DNA of 46,912 nt, from positions 1 through 46,912 of the forward strand of contig DYGG01000020.1 of assembly GCA_020724775.1 (NCBI GenBank), given 5' to 3'. Position 1 is the stretch's first letter, and the number at the start of each line of letters is the position of its first letter. The notes under the pieces were generated by a model. That model saw only the letters and a list, made by a program, of their open reading frames with translations. It did not search any database and had not been told where the DNA came from. The position numbers and the translations under genes were made by a program. This stretch comes from Ignavibacterium sp. (GTDB lineage: Bacteria; Zixibacteria; MSB-5A5; GN15; PGXB01). Positions 159 to 13,064 of the stretch are shown piece after piece.

Positions 159-1709
159 ATGTCGCTTGAAGAAAAACTGAAGAAATTATCGGAGATGCGC
201 GAAGTGGCGCGTCTGGGAGGCGGCGCCGACCGGGTCGAGGCGCAACATAAAAAGGGGAAATTGACCGCCCGGGAACGTCTGGAAATTCTCCTCGACAAGA
301 ATTCCTTCGAAGAATTTGATATGTTCGTAACGCACCGAACCTCCGATTTCGGTCTTGATGACAAGAAGATCCTGGGTGATGGTGTGGTGACCGGATGCGG
401 CACGATTGAGGGACGTCAGGTCTTCGTTTTCTCGCAGGATTTCACCGTGTTCGGCGGCTCGCTGTCGCAGGCTCATGCGGAGAAAATCTGCAAAATAATG
501 GATATGGCGATGAAAGTCGGGGCGCCGGTAATCGGACTCAATGATTCCGGAGGCGCAAGAATACAAGAAGGAGTGGTATCGCTGGGGGGCTATGCTGACA
601 TTTTCCTTCGCAATACGCTGGCATCAGGGGTGATTCCGCAATTTTCGGTCATTCTCGGACCTTGCGCCGGAGGAGCGGTCTATTCGCCGGCGATAACCGA
701 TTTCATTTTGATGGTGAAGAATACCTCATACATGTTTGTCACCGGACCGAATGTGGTCAAGACCGTGACGCATGAAGTGGTGACTTCGGAGGAGTTAGGC
801 GGCGCGGTAGTGCATGCGTCAAAATCAGGGGTGGCGCATTTTGCCTGCGAGAATGAAGCGGAGGCCTTGACAACCTTGCGGAAACTTCTCAGTTATATCC
901 CTCAGAATAATCTCGAAGACCCGCCCTTTGTCGAGACCAATGACCCGTTTGACAGGGAAGATGAAGCCCTTAATACGATTGTTCCGGACAACCCGAATAA
1001 GTCGTATGATATAAAAGACGTGATTCATCACATTGTCGATAACGGCGAGTTTCTGGAAATACAGCCTGATTTTGCGGCGAATATTGTGATAGGTTTTGCG
1101 CGGCTGGGAGGACGCTCGCTCGGGATTATCGCCAATCAGCCGGCGGTGCTGGCGGGAGTGCTGGATATCGCCTCATCGAATAAGGCGGCGCGGTTTATCC
1201 GGTTTTGCGATGCGTTCAATATTCCGCTTTTGACTTTCGAGGATGTCCCCGGGTTCTTGCCGGGGGTGGACCAGGAGCATGGGGGGATAATCAAGAACGG
1301 CGCCAAGTTGCTTTATGCGTACTGCGAGGCGACGGTGCCGAAGGTGACGGTGATAACGCGGAAGGCGTACGGGGGGGCGTATGATGTTATGAACTCCAAG
1401 CATGTCCGCGGCGATATGAATTACGGCTGGCCGACCGCCGAGATTGCGGTAATGGGACCAAAAGGGGCGGTGGAGATCATATTCAAGAAAGAGATTGAGA
1501 AGGCGAAAGACCCTGAAACCGAACTGACCAAGAAGACAGACGAGTACCGGGAAAAGTTCGCCAATCCGTTCATAGCGGCGGCGTATGGGTATCTGGATGA
1601 TATTATCGAGCCGAAGACGACCCGTCCGAGATTGATACGGGCGTTCCAGATGCTGGAGACGAAGAAAGACCAGAACCCGCCGAAGAAGCATGGGAATATA
1701 CCGTTGTGA
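159..1709 (+). CDS. pccB: Acyl-CoA (propionyl-CoA) carboxylase, carboxyltransferase subunit
   Basis: Biotin-dependent carboxyltransferase that moves CO2 from carboxybiotin to propionyl-CoA (or another short acyl-CoA) to give methylmalonyl-CoA, in the cytoplasm. The 516 residues match the usual PccB/MmdA length. Family signatures are visible: the N-terminal [13 protein letters not shown] segment (about 34-46), the oxyanion/acyl-CoA motif [13 protein letters not shown] (126-138), a G-rich stretch [14 protein letters not shown], and the C-terminal carboxylase-domain motif [12 protein letters not shown]. The start follows a GAGAGGGTGG purine run. Biotin carboxylase, biotin carrier, mutase and epimerase genes downstream point to propionyl-CoA metabolism. 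A methylmalonyl-CoA decarboxylase alpha subunit is the main alternative, but no decarboxylase membrane subunits are present. It is separated from its partner subunits by a methyltransferase/nuclease cassette, which is unusual. Confidence 0.93.
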
Positions 1710-1726: not shown

Positions 1727-2878
1727 ATGAGCAAGTTAGAACGCTACGAGAAGGAGCAATTGAATATCGACCTTGACGGTACGCAGAATCGAAAGATGCC
1801 TGACAGAGAATTGATAGTGAATAGGCCGCGAATACTTGAGATAATAGATGCTATGAAAACGTACAACGAGTTATCGCGGATTCGACGCTCCGCACAGGAA
1901 TTATTGAATCAAGTACACGATGCAAGAGATGACCATATGAATTTGTTCAATATTGATTCGAATGGAGAGACCATCAGACTTCGTTCAGGATTCTTGCTGG
2001 AAGAATTACAGAAAATCATAGAGTCGCGGACAATAGAACGATGCAATTACTATATTGAGCACCTACAAAAAGGATTGCTGGAAACAAGGACCAATAAGAT
2101 CAATGACCTCAATCTGAATAGATGGCGAGAGTATAGGGACATATACACAGATAGCTTGTGGATATTGGATAGAAGGGATAGCACGGGTGTTCACTCAGCG
2201 GATTACTGGGGCAATTTCATACCACAGATTCCGCGTCAGTTAATGATGAGATACACCAAACAGGGCGAATGGGTACTGGACGCATTCGCAGGATGCGGTA
2301 CCTCGCTCATTGAAGCCCAGAGACTGGGAAGAAATTGTATTGGTGTGGAATTGCAGAAATCAGTCGCAGATAAGGCTCGAAAGTTGATTTCGTCAGAGCC
2401 AAATGACCATAACGTAGTATGTGAAGTGCATTGCGGGGATAGTCTCTCGGTGGATTACCCCTCATTGTTAAAAGAGCGGGGAGTAAGCAGTATACAGTTA
2501 TTGATTATGCACCCGCCTTATTTTGATATAATTAAGTTTAGCAGCGACCCTCGTGACCTGTCAAATGCTCGCAGCTTGGATTCCTTCCTCTCAATGCTCG
2601 GTCAGGCGGTAGAGAACGCTGCGGCTGTATTAGATAAACACAGGTACTTTGCTTTAGTAATTGGCGACAAGTATTCCAGAGGCGAATGGATACCACTAGG
2701 CTTTCTGGCGATGGATAAGGTTTTGAAGCAGGGATTCACCTTAAAAAGCATTATCGTCAAAAATTTCGAGGAAACAGCAGGTAAGAGAAATCAGCGGGAA
2801 CTATGGCATTATAGAGCACTCGTTGGCGGTTTTTACATTTTTAAGCACGAATACATTTTATTATTTAGGAAAAAATGA
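1727..2878 (+). CDS. DNA (amino) methyltransferase, HPPY type
   Basis: Predicted SAM-dependent DNA methyltransferase (383 aa) that would modify an amino group of adenine or cytosine. Seen directly: the SAM-binding motif I LDAFAGCGTS (184-193), continuing to GRNCIGVEL, and the catalytic motif IV HPPYF (262-266) on its C-terminal side. Motif I therefore precedes motif IV with only about 70 residues between. This is the opposite order to the methyltransferase at 10368-11492. The first 150 residues are helical and charged, and could be the target-recognition or partner-binding part. The His in HPPY replaces the usual D, N or S, so the methylated base cannot be assigned. The nuclease gene follows after 46 bases. 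Codon use is more AT-rich than in the flanking carboxylase genes, suggesting the pair was acquired as a cassette. Confidence 0.85.
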   Translation: MSKLERYEKEQLNIDLDGTQNRKMPDRELIVNRPRILEIIDAMKTYNELSRIRRSAQELLNQVHDARDDHMNLFNIDSNGETIRLRSGFLLEELQKIIESRTIERCNYYIEHLQKGLLETRTNKINDLNLNRWREYRDIYTDSLWILDRRDSTGVHSADYWGNFIPQIPRQLMMRYTKQGEWVLDAFAGCGTSLIEAQRLGRNCIGVELQKSVADKARKLISSEPNDHNVVCEVHCGDSLSVDYPSLLKERGVSSIQLLIMHPPYFDIIKFSSDPRDLSNARSLDSFLSMLGQAVENAAAVLDKHRYFALVIGDKYSRGEWIPLGFLAMDKVLKQGFTLKSIIVKNFEETAGKRNQRELWHYRALVGGFYIFKHEYILLFRKK

Positions 2879-2924
2879 AGTTGATTTGTAGTACTGGCGC
2901 GTAAAGGCATTAAAGGCTATAAGA

Positions 2925-4034
2925 ATGACTACTCACGTATTTATCGTAAACAAGGAATCCTTCCCTTTTCACCTGAAATATTCGTTTGCTGGCACGGGAG
3001 CAGCAGATAAAGCAGAACACATAGGTTTATTAGCTGACATCTGTCGTGTACGAATCGATGACCCAGTGATTTTTTACTTAGAAAGCGTGGGTTTCTACGG
3101 TTTGTTCAAGATAGCTGGAGCCCCGTTCATAGATACAGATGTGCCCACATATCTGGAGTCGGTCATGGGCAAGAAATTAATATATAGAGTTCCAATATCA
3201 CCACATACCGTCTACCCGCTCTTTGTATCGGAATGGGAAGCACTCGACAGGTTACCATTGTATGCCAAAGATGTGATTTGGTCGCTCATTTATAGAAAGC
3301 TTAAGGGGAATAGAGGATGCACGCCCATCACTTTACAGGAATCGGATAATTTGATGAAATTCATTGCCAATATGCGAGGACAGCAGCCAGCATTATCGCT
3401 TTCGGAAGGGGAATACTTTAGATTGGATCCATTCACATTTAAGCTGGAAAAATCCAGTGGTGCACAGCCATACCTTGGACGAATGGAATCAGTCGCGGAC
3501 AAAATGGCTATTATGGAAGCGCTTGATTCTCAAGGTAGGGCGTATGAGGACTACCTACAGGCATATTTCACTGTGAATATAGGACGACTGCCAAAACTCG
3601 ATAGCATCGCTGGGAGAAGTAGTGCGGTCATATGGCTCGGCAATGAGGTGTCCTGCGGAGTAGGCATGCAGAAGATTGATATTTTTACAATTACTTCGGA
3701 CGATAGAGAGAATAGAACTTTTAACCTCATTGAATTAAAATGCATATCTGCTTACCCAAGCATTATTGACCAGCTCCGTCGTTACGTGCTGTGGACTGGA
3801 TCATATATTACTGGGGCGATAAATGCCAACATCCAGCCTATCATTGTAAGTCGTAAGATTGAAAACGGGACCAATAGGATTACCGGCAGACCGCTTAAAC
3901 GGAAAACATTAAGGGACGAAACTGCCGGGGCCTTGATTGAGTTTAACAGAGAAAATCTATCAAAGAAAGTCAAGTGGTTTGAATACTATTTTCAGGATCA
4001 CGACATCTTTTTTGAGGAAGTCTCTTATGAATGA
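2925..4034 (+). CDS. Predicted PD-(D/E)XK endonuclease with N-terminal EVE/PUA-like region
   Basis: Probable restriction endonuclease (369 aa) partnered with the upstream methyltransferase. The C-terminal third holds a nuclease core: D252 in KIDIFTI, E270-x-K272 in LIELK, then Q283 and Y287 in QLRRY. This D / E-x-K / Q..RY layout is that of NucS/RecB-like PD-(D/E)XK nucleases. The first 70 or so residues (HVFIVNK, then DDPVIFYLE and GFYGLFKIAGAPF) resemble an EVE/PUA-like fold, a class that reads modified bases. That assignment is by eye and tentative. The middle (about 80-200) is not recognised. No helicase or ATPase motif is present, so a type II-like or modification-dependent enzyme is more likely than type I or III. 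It shares the AT-leaning composition of its neighbour. Confidence 0.7.
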   Translation: MTTHVFIVNKESFPFHLKYSFAGTGAADKAEHIGLLADICRVRIDDPVIFYLESVGFYGLFKIAGAPFIDTDVPTYLESVMGKKLIYRVPISPHTVYPLFVSEWEALDRLPLYAKDVIWSLIYRKLKGNRGCTPITLQESDNLMKFIANMRGQQPALSLSEGEYFRLDPFTFKLEKSSGAQPYLGRMESVADKMAIMEALDSQGRAYEDYLQAYFTVNIGRLPKLDSIAGRSSAVIWLGNEVSCGVGMQKIDIFTITSDDRENRTFNLIELKCISAYPSIIDQLRRYVLWTGSYITGAINANIQPIIVSRKIENGTNRITGRPLKRKTLRDETAGALIEFNRENLSKKVKWFEYYFQDHDIFFEEVSYE

Positions 4035-4096
4035 GTTCTGCGATTCTTTAAGAGAATAAGGCAGTGACTGTTTTTCGAGCAAAGTATGATTGTGAA

Positions 4097-4295
4097 CGGT
4101 CGGTCTTCAGACCGACCGCGAATTCATGCGGCGGGTCTGAAGACCCGCCGAGCACAGAAGAACCGTCAGGAGGGACTCCTGACGGCGAGAGGAATGGTGA
4201 TTCATCCCCGCCGATGGCGGGGATGAATAAGTCGAAACCGTAAAGGTTTCGACCTACGGAATTTGAAAAAGACCGTCAGGAGGGACTCCTGACGG
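4097..4295. repeat. Palindromic repeat cluster B (six hairpins)
   Basis: The 282-base gap between the nuclease and biotin carboxylase genes is almost entirely hairpins: CGGTCGGTC/GACCGACCG (4097-4105 with 4110-4118); CGGCGGGTC/GACCCGCCG (4129-4137 with 4142-4150); CCGTCAGGAG/CTCCTGACGG (4163-4172 with 4176-4185); ATTCATCCCCGCC with its complement (4200-4212 with 4216-4228); GTCGAAACC/GGTTTCGAC (4231-4239 with 4245-4253); and a second exact copy of CCGTCAGGAG/CTCCTGACGG (4273-4282 with 4286-4295). Stems are 9-13 bp with loops of 3-5 bases. The GTCGAAACC unit also occurs at 50 and 15318. They are REP-like rather than terminators, because no T-runs follow. Confidence 0.9.
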
Positions 4296-4316: not shown

Positions 4317-5846
4317 ATGCCTAAGAGAATAAAGAAGATACTGGTTGCTAACCGGGGGGAGATAGCGATACGGGTGATACGGGGATGCCGTGACGCCGGA
4401 ATCGTGTCGGTGGCGGTGTACTCGGAAATAGATAAGACGGCATATCATGTTCGTCTTGCCGATGAAGCTTATTTTATCGGGCAGGCGCCGGCGCGGGAGA
4501 GTTATCTCAATCAGCAGAAGATAATCGAAGTGGCAAAAGAGGCGGGAGCGGATGCGATTCATCCCGGGTATGGCTTTCTTGCCGAGAATGACCAGTTTGC
4601 CGCTCTCTGCGAGAAGAATAGAATTATTTTTATCGGGCCGAAGTCGGAGACGATAGCGCTTCTGGGTGACAAATTGGAAGCGCGGAAAGTGGCACTCAAA
4701 GCGGGACTTCCGGTAATACCGGGGACCGATTTCGATAATAAAGATTTGTCGCAAGTAGAAGAAACAGCAAAGCAGATTGGGTATCCGGTGCTGGTGAAAG
4801 CGGCGGCCGGCGGCGGCGGAAAGGGGATGCGGATTGTGCGGGAGCCGGAGCGTCTCCGGGAATCGGTGGAATCGGCGATTCGTGAGGCTGGTTCAGCATT
4901 CGGGGATGGTCGGGTCTATTTTGAAAAGTATCTCGAGAATCCGCGCCACGTGGAAATCCAGATTTTCGCCGATTCACACGGGCATGCCGTTTATCTCGGA
5001 GAGCGGGAATGCTCGATACAGAGACGGCATCAAAAGGTAATAGAAGAATCGCCTTCGCCGATTATGACCCCGGAATTGCGGGAGAAAATGGGGACAGCGG
5101 CGGTGAATTTGGCGCGGGCATCCGGTTATCTCGGAGCCGGGACGGTCGAGTTTCTGGTCGATAAGAATCGGAGTTTCTACTTTCTGGAAGTGAATACCCG
5201 TCTTCAGGTGGAGCATCCGGTGACCGAGATGGTAACGGGTCTCGATTTAGTTCGGGAGCAGATAAATGTTGCCGAAGGGCATTCGCTTTCATTCCGTCAG
5301 GAAGATATTCAGCCGCGGGGACATGCGGTGGAGTGCCGGATTTACGCGGAGAATCCGCATCAGGATTTTCTACCGTCAACAGGAAAATTAACCGAATATC
5401 GCGAGCCGTCGGGTCCCGGAGTGCGGGTTGATTCCGGCGTGGTTCAGGGGTCGGAGATTTCGATATATTATGACCCGATAATCGCCAAACTGGTGGTCTG
5501 GGGAACGGACCGTGAAGAGGCGATAGCGCGGGCGCAGAGGGCATTGACCGAGTATCGGATTTCGGGAGTGCATACCACAATTGGCTTTGCCTGCTCAATA
5601 TTGCGCTCGGGGGGATTTCGCGCCGGCGAATATTCGACCGGATATGTGGAAGAAGAATTTCCGGACCGGAATTTTGAATGTCCCCAGAGCGACCAGGCGC
5701 AGAAGGCGGCATTTGCGGCGGCGATATTTGATTTTCTGGAGAAAGAGAAAGTGTCGCTGACGATGAAGCGTCGCGGCGAAAAAGCCGGAGGCTGGGTGCA
5801 GTACTACCGCAACCAGAACCTGAGCCGTCTGAGCAAGATGAGATAA
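4317..5846 (+). CDS. accC: Biotin carboxylase subunit of acyl-CoA carboxylase
   Basis: ATP-dependent carboxylation of the biotin carrier, the first half-reaction of propionyl- or acetyl-CoA carboxylase. The 509 residues show the family layout: N-terminal KILVANRGEIAIRVIR (about 7-22), HPGYGFLAEN (82-91), the ATP-grasp glycine loop AGGGGKGM (164-171), HQKVIEESPS (238-247) and the biotin/bicarbonate signature EVNTRLQVEHPVTE (291-304). The final 50 or so residues run beyond the standard AccC end. The biotin carrier follows two bases after the stop, so the two are translationally linked. The gene may serve both acetyl-CoA and propionyl-CoA carboxylase, but its company (mutase and epimerase) favours a propionyl-CoA (pccA-type) role. 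Confidence 0.93.
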   Translation: MPKRIKKILVANRGEIAIRVIRGCRDAGIVSVAVYSEIDKTAYHVRLADEAYFIGQAPARESYLNQQKIIEVAKEAGADAIHPGYGFLAENDQFAALCEKNRIIFIGPKSETIALLGDKLEARKVALKAGLPVIPGTDFDNKDLSQVEETAKQIGYPVLVKAAAGGGGKGMRIVREPERLRESVESAIREAGSAFGDGRVYFEKYLENPRHVEIQIFADSHGHAVYLGERECSIQRRHQKVIEESPSPIMTPELREKMGTAAVNLARASGYLGAGTVEFLVDKNRSFYFLEVNTRLQVEHPVTEMVTGLDLVREQINVAEGHSLSFRQEDIQPRGHAVECRIYAENPHQDFLPSTGKLTEYREPSGPGVRVDSGVVQGSEISIYYDPIIAKLVVWGTDREEAIARAQRALTEYRISGVHTTIGFACSILRSGGFRAGEYSTGYVEEEFPDRNFECPQSDQAQKAAFAAAIFDFLEKEKVSLTMKRRGEKAGGWVQYYRNQNLSRLSKMR

Positions 5847-5848
5847 CA

Positions 5849-6367
5849 ATGGCGAATTCAGAGAATAGATATCTGGTCACCGTAGATGACGTGGAATTTG
5901 ACCTGGCGGTTACCCCGAAAGGGAGCAGTTTCGAGGTTGAATACAACGGCGCCCGCTACAAAGTAGAGGCGCATCGGCTGAGCGACCGGAAATATCTTTT
6001 TAAGATTGATGAGAGTTCCTCGGAGGTGGATCTTTCCCGCAACGGTGGCGGTTACAATATCTATCTGGAAGGAAAAGATATGATAGCCCGGGTGGAGCCG
6101 TATCATCTGGCGGAACTGCGGAAAAAAGCCAGCAAGGCGTTGAGCGGAGCGACAGAGAAAATTGTCCGGGTGCCGATGCCGGGATTGGTCTTGTCGATTG
6201 CCGTCAAGCCGGGGGATAAAGTCAAAAAAGGAATGACCCTGGCGGTGATTGAAGCGATGAAAATGGAGAATCTGATTAGGGCAGCCGCCGACGGAACCGT
6301 CAAAGAGATTTTTGCCGCGCCGGGGAAAGCGGTCGAGAAAAATGAGAATCTCCTGGAGATAGAGTAA
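5849..6367 (+). CDS. Biotin carboxyl carrier protein of acyl-CoA carboxylase
   Basis: Carries the covalent biotin between the carboxylase and carboxyltransferase active sites. The last 70 residues form a biotinyl/lipoyl domain with the canonical EAMKMEN motif, placing the biotinylated lysine at K138. The preceding [12 protein letters not shown] and [11 protein letters not shown] are also typical. The first 90 or so residues are a beta-rich linker domain seen in separate propionyl-CoA/oxaloacetate-type carriers, not the Ala/Pro-rich linker of AccB. The gene begins two bases after the biotin carboxylase stop and ends one base before the GTG start of the mutase, so it belongs to one transcript. 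Confidence 0.93.
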
Positions 6368-6368
6368 C

Positions 6369-7937
6369 GTGCCGGAAAAGAAAGAGACAACCTCCGGCAT
6401 CGAGATTCCGATAATTGCCGAGCCGCACCAGATTGATTTGAAAAAACTGGGGACGCCGGGAGAGTATCCGTACACGCGGGGCATTTATAGAGATATGTAT
6501 CGGGGGCGTCTCTGGACGATGCGTCAGTATGCCGGATTCGGTACCGCCGAAGAGACCAACCAGAGATTCAGATATCTTCTTTCGCAGGGACAAACCGGGC
6601 TTTCTGTGGCGTTCGATTTGCCGACGCAGATCGGTTACGACAGCGACCATCCGATGGCAAAAGGGGAGGTGGGGCGAACGGGAGTGGCGATATCGTCGCT
6701 GGAAGATATGGAGCGTCTTTTCGACAAGATACCGCTGGGGGAGGTATCGACCTCGATGACCATAAATGCGACGGCGATGATTTTGCTGGCAATGTATATC
6801 ACGGTGGCTAAGAAGCAGGGAGTGACCTCAGAAAGAATTTCCGGCACGGTGCAAAATGATATATTGAAGGAGTTTATTGCGCGGGGGACATATATTTTCC
6901 CGCCGGGGCCATCGATGCGGATAATCACCGACATATTCGCCTATGCCAAGGAGTATCTTCCGAAATTCAACACGATATCGATATCGGGATATCATATTCG
7001 TGAAGCGGGAGCGACCGCGGCGCAAGAGGCGGCTTTCACCTTTGCCGATGCGGTGGCGTATGTGGAAGCGGCGCTGGCGGCGGGACTTGATATAGATGAT
7101 TTCGCCCCGCGGTTGTCGTTTTTCATGGCGGCGCATAATAATATATTTGAGGAAGTGGCAAAATATCGGGCGATGCGGCGTCTCTGGGCGCGGATGATGA
7201 AGGAGAAGTTCAAAGCGAAAGAGAGTCGGTCATATCTGTTTCGGTTTCATACGCAGACCGGCGGCTCGACCCTGACCGCACAGCAAGCCGAGAATAATAT
7301 CGTGCGGACAGCGATGCAGGCGCTGGCGGCGGTTTTAGGAGGAACGCAATCGCTTCATACCAACGCCTATGACGAGGCGCTGGCGCTTCCGACCGAGAAG
7401 TCGGCCGAGATTGCACTTCGGACACAGCAGTTGCTTGCCTACGAATCAGGGGCGGCAGACAGCGCCGACCCGCTGGGGGGGAGTTACTTTGTGGAATACT
7501 TGACGGATGAAATGGAAAAGAAAATTTGGACGCTTCTTGCGGAGATTGAGAAAAGGGGTGGGGCGGTCAAGGCGGTGGAGTCGGGGTATTTTAAGAGCGA
7601 AATTGCCCAATCGGCATATAAGTATCAGAAGGAGATTGAAAGCGGGAAGAGAGTAGTGGTGGGAGTAAATAGATTTATATCAGAATCGAAAGAGAGCGCG
7701 GATATTCTGAAAGTAAACCCGGACCTGGAGGAGAAGCAGAGATGTCGCCTGCAGGAGTTGCGAAAAAGACGGGACAATAAGAAAGTGGAGCGGGCGCTTT
7801 CGACGCTGGAGGACGCCGCCCGCGGGAAAGAGAATATCGTTCCGGCGGTGATGGAAGCGGTGGAAAGTTACGCGACTGTCGGAGAAATTTCAGACAGGCT
7901 GAGAAATTTATGGGGAGAATATCATGAGAGGATTTAG
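6369..7937 (+). CDS. Methylmalonyl-CoA mutase, large (catalytic) subunit
   Basis: Catalytic TIM-barrel half of adenosylcobalamin-dependent methylmalonyl-CoA mutase, interconverting (R)-methylmalonyl-CoA and succinyl-CoA. The signature run from [20 protein letters not shown] (about 34-53) through [21 protein letters not shown] is unmistakable, as are [14 protein letters not shown] and [20 protein letters not shown]. At 522 residues it stops where the C-terminal B12-binding domain would begin, so it is the split form needing a separate small cobalamin-binding subunit. That subunit is not in this window. The start is GTG at 6369, one base after the carrier stop; no in-frame ATG lies nearer the conserved N-terminus. 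Its 3' end overlaps the lipoprotein gene by 14 bases. Confidence 0.95.
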
Positions 7938-10367: not shown

Positions 10368-11492
10368 TCACTTCATCGAAAGACAGTTGGTAATTTTCTG
10401 GGTTTCAGGCTTACCCAAATTCGAATTACCGTATTCAGCAAGGTCTATAATGCCCGTAAATGTGTGCCTATTCAGATTTCTGGCGGCCTCTATACAGAAA
10501 TCTGGAACAATGTCTATACCCACGTAATCCCTGCCAAGTTCCTTCGCCGCAACGCAAGTAGTACCTATTCCACAAAATGGGTCCAAAATTATATCACCTG
10601 CGAATTGCTCCTCTTGAACACGCATGAATGAATACATAGCTATAAGTCGATTCGCCAGCGATTTCGGAAAAGGCGCTGGATGACGAGACCGCTTGACATC
10701 AGCAGGGTATAATCTCCAAATCTGCTTGGTTAGATTCATCCACTGAGACTCGGTGACCCTGCTGGCTTCTTTGACTCTGTCCGATAAGATATCCGGTTTG
10801 CCCTCTTTCACAAGCACATTTATAAATTCTATCGTATTCTGTTCATAAAGATTAGGAGGATAAGGATAAGAACCGAACATTTTCTCTGTAGTCTGTTTCT
10901 GCCAAATGAATAGGCTAAATCGCTGGAGAGATGAAATATTTGACAATATAGAATGCTCAATATCATTGTTCAAGTTTTTCACATGCCTGGTATGCTGATT
11001 CTTCATGACCGCTTTGGAGACAGGCATTAAGGGAACATTGATACATAGTTTACCATTTGGCTTTAACACGCGAGCACATTCAATCCACATCTGTAGTAGT
11101 TGAGTCAAGTATTTATCATACTGAGTCTGACCATATTGATTGGCCACACCATAGTCGACTATATTCCAGTAGGGTGGACTGGTAATTATGCATCTTACCG
11201 ATTGGTCGGGGATCAAGCGCATGGCCAAAAGAGCATCACCGCACATTAATCTATTACGAATATCCGAAACTGTAAATTGCTCTACCGGATTTTTTCCACT
11301 ACGTAAGTCTATTATGTTATGTCGTCGGAATAATGACGCAGAGTCTTGTATTTTATTCGGTACATAGACTCGGTGGGAGGGGGCTTCGAGCGTGGGTTTT
11401 TTAATGGATATAGAATGACCTAGGTGCTCGGTAAATAGTTCACCGTTTTTCGTATTGCTGTTAACACGATCCCTTTTTAATTTGCTTTTCAT
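10368..11492 (-). CDS. DNA methyltransferase, TSPPY type (probable N4-cytosine)
   Basis: Predicted SAM-dependent DNA methyltransferase (374 aa from the ATG). Catalytic motif IV is TSPPYW (104-109), followed by a DYG and a KPNGKLCINVP strand. SAM-binding motif I, LDPFCGIGTT (about 303-312) continuing to GRDYVGIDI, sits at the C-terminus after the RHPAPFPKSLANRLI segment. This IV-to-I order is beta class. TSPPY and SPPY enzymes usually make N4-methylcytosine, so that is the likely product. The span of about 180 residues between the motifs would contain target recognition. An in-frame TTG at 11504 could add four residues. It lies 42 bases downstream of the nuclease stop on the same strand, and both genes are AT-richer than the flanking DNA. 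Confidence 0.87.
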   Translation of the reverse strand: MKSKLKRDRVNSNTKNGELFTEHLGHSISIKKPTLEAPSHRVYVPNKIQDSASLFRRHNIIDLRSGKNPVEQFTVSDIRNRLMCGDALLAMRLIPDQSVRCIITSPPYWNIVDYGVANQYGQTQYDKYLTQLLQMWIECARVLKPNGKLCINVPLMPVSKAVMKNQHTRHVKNLNNDIEHSILSNISSLQRFSLFIWQKQTTEKMFGSYPYPPNLYEQNTIEFINVLVKEGKPDILSDRVKEASRVTESQWMNLTKQIWRLYPADVKRSRHPAPFPKSLANRLIAMYSFMRVQEEQFAGDIILDPFCGIGTTCVAAKELGRDYVGIDIVPDFCIEAARNLNRHTFTGIIDLAEYGNSNLGKPETQKITNCLSMK

Positions 11493-11534
11493 TCCCAGAG
11501 TCAACTCAGTTGGTTAGAATTCACATTCTTGCTA

Positions 11535-13064
11535 TTAAACGTCAGTTACAAGGAGTCCATGTTTCTTGAACGATAAGAATTCTTTATAGTCTTTCTTTAA
11601 GAGACCGATTCTTGAATAACGAGCTTTTTCGCCAAACATGCCGGCCACAATGATGCCTCTGACACTACCTTTGCTTTCGAGGAGGTTTCTGTAAACCCAA
11701 CCTATATATCTTAATATTTGCCCGAAAACGGCATCGTCGGCCTCATTGCTTTTAATCTCTACTACCACGATATCGCCACCCTTGCTCTTGCACAAAAGGT
11801 CGATTCGACCTATTGGTGTCGAGAGCTGGCGGCCATCTTTCATCAGTTTCAATCCTGGTTCAAGTTTTTCTAAGCATTTTGCATAGAAGTCTTCAATCAT
11901 TTTTTCCGTTTGTCTCTTCTCTATCACTACCCGTTCTTCTGCAGCCAAGTGTTCAGAATGTTTCCTGATCAGAGACCTTACCTGCTTCTTAGTGGGTGCT
12001 TTCTCGATAGCAAGCATCAAAAATGTAAACCATGATGGTTTCTGTTTCGGATCGCCATAATAGGCGAACCAATCTTCTAAATTTTCGAACAGGCTAATCT
12101 TAAAGTTTGCAAGCTGCTCATTGATTAGGCTGTTGAGCATTTGGGGGTCACGCCCTCGTATCTCAGATGATTCTTCGTCTATAATCAGATAAGAGGGGTA
12201 CGCAAAAAAGGACCTTTGATATGAAATATTTTGATGAATTCGAAGATATCTCTTTCGCACTTTCTTTGATGACTTGTATTTGGTCCTGCCACAGATGGTA
12301 TCAATTATTTCATTTTGCTCTGCTTGATCCAAATCTCTCCAAAGCAGGATGTACTTCGTTATGCGGTCGATGTCATTTTGGGTCGAGGAGAGGTTTATAA
12401 ACAACTCAAATTCACTTATACTCAGCCTATTGTTACACTTCTGTAACACCTGAAGAAGAAATAGGTGAGGTAAAATTCCAGCAAAATTCTCAGAATACTT
12501 GCCTTTGAAAGCCGGATTTGGATATTGGAACTTGGCAATCTGCCCTTCGATAATTGACCTTGGATTTTCAGAATGTATTAGGTCATAGCCGGCGTCCGTT
12601 ATGACTATGCTGGCACCGTCCTTAATCCATAATAGACCCAACCATTCCATTAGAATCTTGCCGATTCTGACGAGTGCTGTTCTATCTTGAAGAGTCCCAT
12701 CTGAGCTATAAGGTTCATAGATGCCCTGATGTTTCATGATATCAAGTATCTTGTCTTGGACTCTTATGTTCCAAGGGAGAGCAGCAAAATCTTCGGCTAT
12801 GACTTCAATCAGTTTTCCCATCGCTTCAACATTTAAGTCGCTGAGTGACCGAGCCTTGGGTACATACCAATAAGTACGGCAGGTAGAATACTCAGACAGA
12901 AACTCTATGAAATGGTCCCTGAACGGAAAGTCCCTTCTTAATGTTGCCTGGGCTCTTTTCCTCAATCTTGCCATCTCGTCTCTACAACTTTTCTTGTTCT
13001 CACAGTTTCCAGGGTTGCTTCTGTAGTTACTGTTAAAATTAACAAATGGATTTAATTTTATCAA
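11535..13064 (-). CDS. Predicted restriction endonuclease with C-terminal NucS-like nuclease domain
   Basis: 509-residue protein. The last 90 residues are a NucS/DUF91-like PD-(D/E)XK domain: GRIDLL with D422, VVVEIK with E436 and K438, and QILRY with Q449 and Y453. Residues about 120-180 (RIGKILMEWLGLL, then ITDAGYDLIHS) look like a winged-helix unit, plausibly for DNA binding. The centre (about 190-400) is helical and not recognised. There is no ATPase motif, so with the adjacent TSPPY methyltransferase it reads as a type II-like system. The reading frame opens at a TTG (13064) directly after a stop codon and lacks a clear ribosome-binding site. The ATG at 12974 (479 aa) is an alternative that leaves all recognisable parts intact. 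Confidence 0.72.
   Translation of the reverse strand: MIKLNPFVNFNSNYRSNPGNCENKKSCRDEMARLRKRAQATLRRDFPFRDHFIEFLSEYSTCRTYWYVPKARSLSDLNVEAMGKLIEVIAEDFAALPWNIRVQDKILDIMKHQGIYEPYSSDGTLQDRTALVRIGKILMEWLGLLWIKDGASIVITDAGYDLIHSENPRSIIEGQIAKFQYPNPAFKGKYSENFAGILPHLFLLQVLQKCNNRLSISEFELFINLSSTQNDIDRITKYILLWRDLDQAEQNEIIDTICGRTKYKSSKKVRKRYLRIHQNISYQRSFFAYPSYLIIDEESSEIRGRDPQMLNSLINEQLANFKISLFENLEDWFAYYGDPKQKPSWFTFLMLAIEKAPTKKQVRSLIRKHSEHLAAEERVVIEKRQTEKMIEDFYAKCLEKLEPGLKLMKDGRQLSTPIGRIDLLCKSKGGDIVVVEIKSNEADDAVFGQILRYIGWVYRNLLESKGSVRGIIVAGMFGEKARYSRIGLLKKDYKEFLSFKKHGLLVTDV

Follow-up and report, generated by a model that had tools for sequence, protein, structure and literature searches.

A putative type II-like restriction-modification pair, probably acquired horizontally, in the pccB-accC junction of a Zixibacteria propionyl-CoA operon

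Results

A methyltransferase and a nuclease gene separate two carboxylase subunits

The window, that is, the whole stretch of 46,912 nucleotides analyzed here, is contig C49 of genome G000 (3.07 Mb). Between pccB and accC, where a sequence-only reading had placed a DNA methyltransferase and a nuclease, the two ORFs were indeed found (Table 1). All operon and cassette genes are on the plus strand, 17 bp separate the pccB end from the methyltransferase start, and the ORF list contains no further plus-strand gene between the nuclease and accC. As no rho-independent terminator-like site was detected on the plus strand of the nuclease-accC gap and promoter-like sites did not exceed chance, read-through from pccB into the pair is plausible, and judging from the sequence the pair could plausibly be transcribed together with the operon.

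Table 1. Genes and repeats at the pccB-accC junction of the window
Feature	Position	Strand	Evidence and remarks
pccB, propionyl-CoA carboxylase carboxyltransferase subunit	159-1709	+	Pfam Carboxyl_trans 2.4e-205; host operon gene 5′ of the insertion
N6-adenine/N4-cytosine DNA methyltransferase	1727-2878	+	Pfam N6_N4_Mtase 2.6e-18; PADLOC MTase_II
EVE + NucS-like PD-(D/E)XK nuclease (predicted), 369 aa	2925-4034	+	Family profile matches; residues invariant in 7 homologs
Palindromic REP-like repeat cluster	4091-4295		Between nuclease and accC; not cassette-specific
accC, biotin carboxylase subunit	4317-5846	+	Pfam CPSase_L_D2 2.4e-77, Biotin_carb_N, Biotin_carb_C; host operon gene 3′ of the insertion
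BCCP, biotin carrier gene	5849-6367	+	ORF
Methylmalonyl-CoA mutase subunit	6369-7937	+	ORF

The cassette differs in composition from the operon and is absent from relatives

Both cassette genes have a GC content of 0.43, compared with 0.51-0.54 in pccB, accC, BCCP and mmcA, and their GC3 is 0.44-0.48, compared with 0.58-0.64 in the same four genes; the earlier remark that the pair is more AT-rich than its flanks thus holds for both measures. The tetramer AGCT occurs seven times in the 2.3 kb cassette versus five times in the remaining 41.9 kb of the window, being about 25-fold commoner in the cassette (p 6.6e-7), which is a second sign of foreign origin, independent of GC.

The nuclease was not found in any of the 59 relatives searched, most of which have the operon, and which include the same-genus genome G001, whose PccB is 96% identical to that of the window. 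The pccB-accC gap was measured in 50 genomes of the phylum, the window among them, and spans 2-34 bp in most relatives; that of G001 consists of 461 bp of palindromic repeats with no restriction-modification (R-M) genes. Hence either this lineage gained the cassette or G001 lost it, and the composition of the cassette makes gain the simpler of the two. The comparison across related genomes, among which the cassette is not a general feature of the junction, together with the foreign composition and the short junction in most relatives, supports the suggestion of the sequence-only reading that a cassette was recently inserted here.

That reading had also described palindrome clusters before pccB and after the nuclease. 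Seven inverted-repeat pairs do lie at 4091-4295, but upstream of pccB there is one perfect inverted repeat only (50-72), for which "cluster" is generous. One palindrome type is present in 14 copies in this genome and in 2-13 copies in each of five relatives, and it also occurs at the cassette-free junction of G001. The palindromes are dispersed genome-wide repeats and no part of the cassette, and were rejected as marks of the cassette or as insertion boundaries.

Predicted domains of the two proteins

The nuclease alone had no match of its own in Pfam or PADLOC and, as had been proposed, no ATPase domain match, and it matched NucS weakly (E 0.006). A family profile built from seven homologs matched the PH1033 EVE structure in its N-terminal part (E 2e-5, profile positions 40-103) and NucS further downstream (E 0.004, positions 270-335). 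Individually, three of the seven family members matched Pfam EVE (best 5e-5), and three matched Pfam NucS_C (best 0.029). In the alignment, D252, E270, K272, Q283, Y287 and W290 are invariant in the seven homologs; the first three had been named as the residues whose loss would argue against a nuclease, and no such loss was seen, so the catalytic residues of the predicted nuclease are intact. An AlphaFold model made from four sequences was poor (mean pLDDT 47.9), and the resemblance of its N-terminus to PH1033, YTHDF2 and the EVE-HNH enzyme VcaM4I in Foldseek agrees with an EVE domain as a weak pointer of little weight, for the N-terminus only. The profile matches support the anticipated architecture of a predicted N-terminal EVE domain followed by a candidate NucS/EndoMS-like core. 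At a weak level of similarity, this core shares with the C-terminal core of the mismatch endonuclease NucS/EndoMS the succession of D, E-x-K and Q, whereas the N-terminus matches EVE in place of the NucS N-terminal DNA-binding domain, and a methyltransferase lies alongside.

The methyltransferase was matched over its full length by PADLOC MTase_II (PDLC03351, 9.7e-148 over 25-383). Its motif I (DAFAGCGT) precedes motif IV (HPPY), and DxFxGxGT and HPPY are invariant in eight homologs. In the phylum, relatives of this enzyme adjoin other nucleases: a PADLOC REase_II/ICEA-like protein (8e-38) in G067, and a different, unclassified protein of 280-300 aa in G109 and G119. Exchange of nuclease partners is typical of type II systems, and the relatives with other restriction enzymes are what would be expected of such a system. 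From the ICEA-like partner in G067, which we presume to be related to NlaIII, CATG might be guessed as the target; CATG is mildly depleted in the window (0.71), which neither supports nor refutes the guess. Among plasmids and phages, homologs of the methyltransferase were limited to one partial Fusobacterium match, with none in phages.

The pair recurs in unrelated contexts

Besides the window, the methyltransferase-nuclease pair was found in four unrelated contexts, with different flanking genes in each, a distribution that would suit a mobile type II-like R-M unit. The methyltransferase directly precedes the nuclease in the same direction on three contigs, one from Desantisbacteria (L002; nuclease 48% identical), one delta-proteobacterial (L003; 34%) and one viral (L116; 39%), while about 0.5 kb separates the two genes in G120 (L110; 36%). 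On the viral contig, positions 677-2582 of the minus strand, beside the R-M pair, hold a CBASS-like oligonucleotide cyclase, a 2TM/SLATT effector (both by PADLOC models) and a 167 aa ORF, and the other ORFs of the contig look phage-like by eye. This contig was the only viral source of nuclease homologs; none was found in annotated phages, and plasmids yielded a single Halobaculum orphan (26% identity).

Family members with no adjacent methyltransferase were found at L113 and L007, in G100 and the Halobaculum plasmid. As a separate observation, two genomes related to each other (L113, 4001-4987; L006, 818-1801) carry a stand-alone EVE-NucS-like protein with no methyltransferase, next to a gene that is conserved between them; the L006 copy is broken by stop codons.

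Inserts at the pccB-accC junction

Inserts of more than 400 bp were present at pccB-accC in 10 of the 50 genomes measured. Apart from the pair in the window, they comprise an Mrr protein (G028; Pfam 2e-33), a DUF559/REase_MTES_1575 protein (G017), an HNH protein (G023), a Y1 transposase (G107), ORFs with no family (G007, G011, G021 and G027) and, in G001, palindromes only. By eye, the insert in G011 resembled a PD-(D/E)XK protein, but neither Pfam nor PADLOC supported this, and it was therefore left out of the nuclease count.

Within the same operon, the tightly coupled accC-BCCP and BCCP-mutase junctions had no inserts. Loose junctions did, between the mcm large subunit and the B12 subunit in 5 of 30 cases and between the hydrolase and pccB in 3 of 38, with a TIR protein, an SLFN_AlbA_2 protein and another Y1 transposase among the cargo; these junctions are not significantly poorer in inserts than pccB-accC (p 0.10). 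At the mutase large subunit-B12 subunit junction, the inserts at L149, L151 and L152 have a GC content of 0.31-0.36 and include an SLFN_AlbA_2 protein and two ORFs of 356-359 aa that are related to each other, one of which was scanned and showed no Pfam family. As a control, the nuo operon was inspected in 25 genomes of the phylum and had no insert >400 bp at any nuo junction. Its loosely spaced junctions gave 0 of 92, compared with 9 of 39 for pccB-accC (p 9e-6), a comparison that treats genomes as independent, draws partly on draft genomes and has a single operon as its control, possibly a more strongly constrained one.

These inserts make pccB-accC a strong lead for, rather than an established case of, a recurrent insertion hotspot. 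The junction may well be a neutral loose gap that accepts any gene, with the enrichment in nucleases reflecting what is mobile, a view compatible with any reading of the pair. It agrees with the inserts at the other loose junctions and their lack at tightly coupled ones, and sits less easily with the empty loose nuo junctions, although nuo may be the more constrained operon. More tentatively, the propionyl/methylmalonyl-CoA operon might be a specific intra-operon defence hotspot in the phylum, in which single defence genes or pairs would repeatedly settle between subunits, chiefly at pccB-accC, and be expressed from the metabolic transcript. Like the defence islands and core-gene defence hotspots known from E. 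coli and P. aeruginosa (PMC10121019, PMC10250203), the junction holds varied defence-type genes in one conserved slot; unlike in those, the slot here separates the genes for two subunits of a single enzyme within a metabolic operon, and the cargo is one or two genes.

Other traces of restriction in the window

A second AT-rich (GC 0.41-0.42) putative R-M pair lies at 10368-13064 on the minus strand. It pairs an N6_N4 methyltransferase (PADLOC MTase_II 4.5e-60) with a protein of 509 aa in which an AlwI-like part (RE_AlwI 7.5e-6) is joined to NucS_C (4e-10); the nuclease of this pair is absent from 29 relatives. Relative to expectation, the tetramer frequencies in the window (1-46912) are 0.13 for GATC, 0.16 for AGCT, 0.34 for GGCC and 0.09 for CTAG. 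G001 shares the avoidance of GATC and GGCC, and partly that of AGCT (0.41); in more distant relatives GATC ranges over 0.53-0.96 and GGCC over 0.74-0.99, and CTAG is low in all. This avoidance may have been left behind by prolonged exposure to restriction.

Discussion

We consider it likely that the cassette is a horizontally acquired, two-gene type II-like R-M unit in the pccB-accC junction of the methylmalonyl/propionyl-CoA operon. The methyltransferase would mark the host genome at a short DNA target, and the EVE-NucS-like nuclease would cut DNA that lacks the mark, with the EVE domain as a likely reader of DNA or of a base; we infer the shared target, the cleavage activity and the EVE role from sequence. 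As in type II systems with N6/N4 amino-methyltransferases, a methyltransferase with SAM-binding and catalytic motifs adjoins a separate nuclease gene, the two are conserved as a pair, and neither protein has an ATPase/helicase or specificity subunit domain; the patchy distribution and the swapped nuclease partners are likewise type II-like. What differs is the nuclease, an apparent fusion of EVE and NucS-like parts that by itself matches nothing in Pfam or PADLOC. Our literature search found no paper joining Zixibacteria with restriction-modification.

The EVE domain is the hallmark of modification-dependent enzymes (PMC7641849, PMC7897488), and the nuclease could therefore instead need a modification, in keeping with the modification-sensing system suggested by the sequence-only reading. 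If the system were type IV, or type II and IV at once, EVE would bind a modified base in the invader and trigger the nuclease, and a methyltransferase mark that EVE does not read would shield the host. EVE-PD(D/E)XK fusions have been catalogued as putative type IV enzymes, and a shielding methyltransferase has been proposed for EVE-associated systems (PMC7641849). The present nuclease shares with those fusions, and with VcaM4I (PMC7897488), an EVE and a nuclease domain in one chain, and at the sequence level its EVE match indicates the modified-base reader expected of type IV; VcaM4I has an HNH core, whereas the core here appears NucS-like. The N-terminal fold resemblance to PH1033, YTHDF2 and VcaM4I would fit as well but comes from a low-confidence model, and the orphans in G100 and the Halobaculum plasmid make a modification-dependent role possible for the wider family. 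However, unlike in those type IV enzymes, the partner methyltransferase is conserved: the four closest nuclease homologs all have it beside or near them, and orphans occur among distant members only. This favours protection of the type II kind over a pure type IV function. Nucleases of other families are likewise partnered by the same methyltransferase, and we judge the modification-sensing alternative unlikely. We consider it very improbable that the pair belongs to the operon and serves the host in regulation or repair, combining methylation with a NucS-like nuclease of the mismatch repair family, since the position of the pair on the pccB strand, 17 bp from that gene, is outweighed by the absence of the nuclease from all 59 relatives, the foreign composition of the cassette, and the recurrence of the pair among unrelated neighbours, which on a viral contig include CBASS-like genes.

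Should the junction pattern hold, loose joints of metabolic operons would be places to find defence genes that island-based searches miss. With its dedicated methyltransferase, an EVE-NucS nuclease would be intermediate between type II (protected-site) and type IV (modification-dependent) restriction, and its EVE domain would thus allow one to test directly how either class could yield the other.
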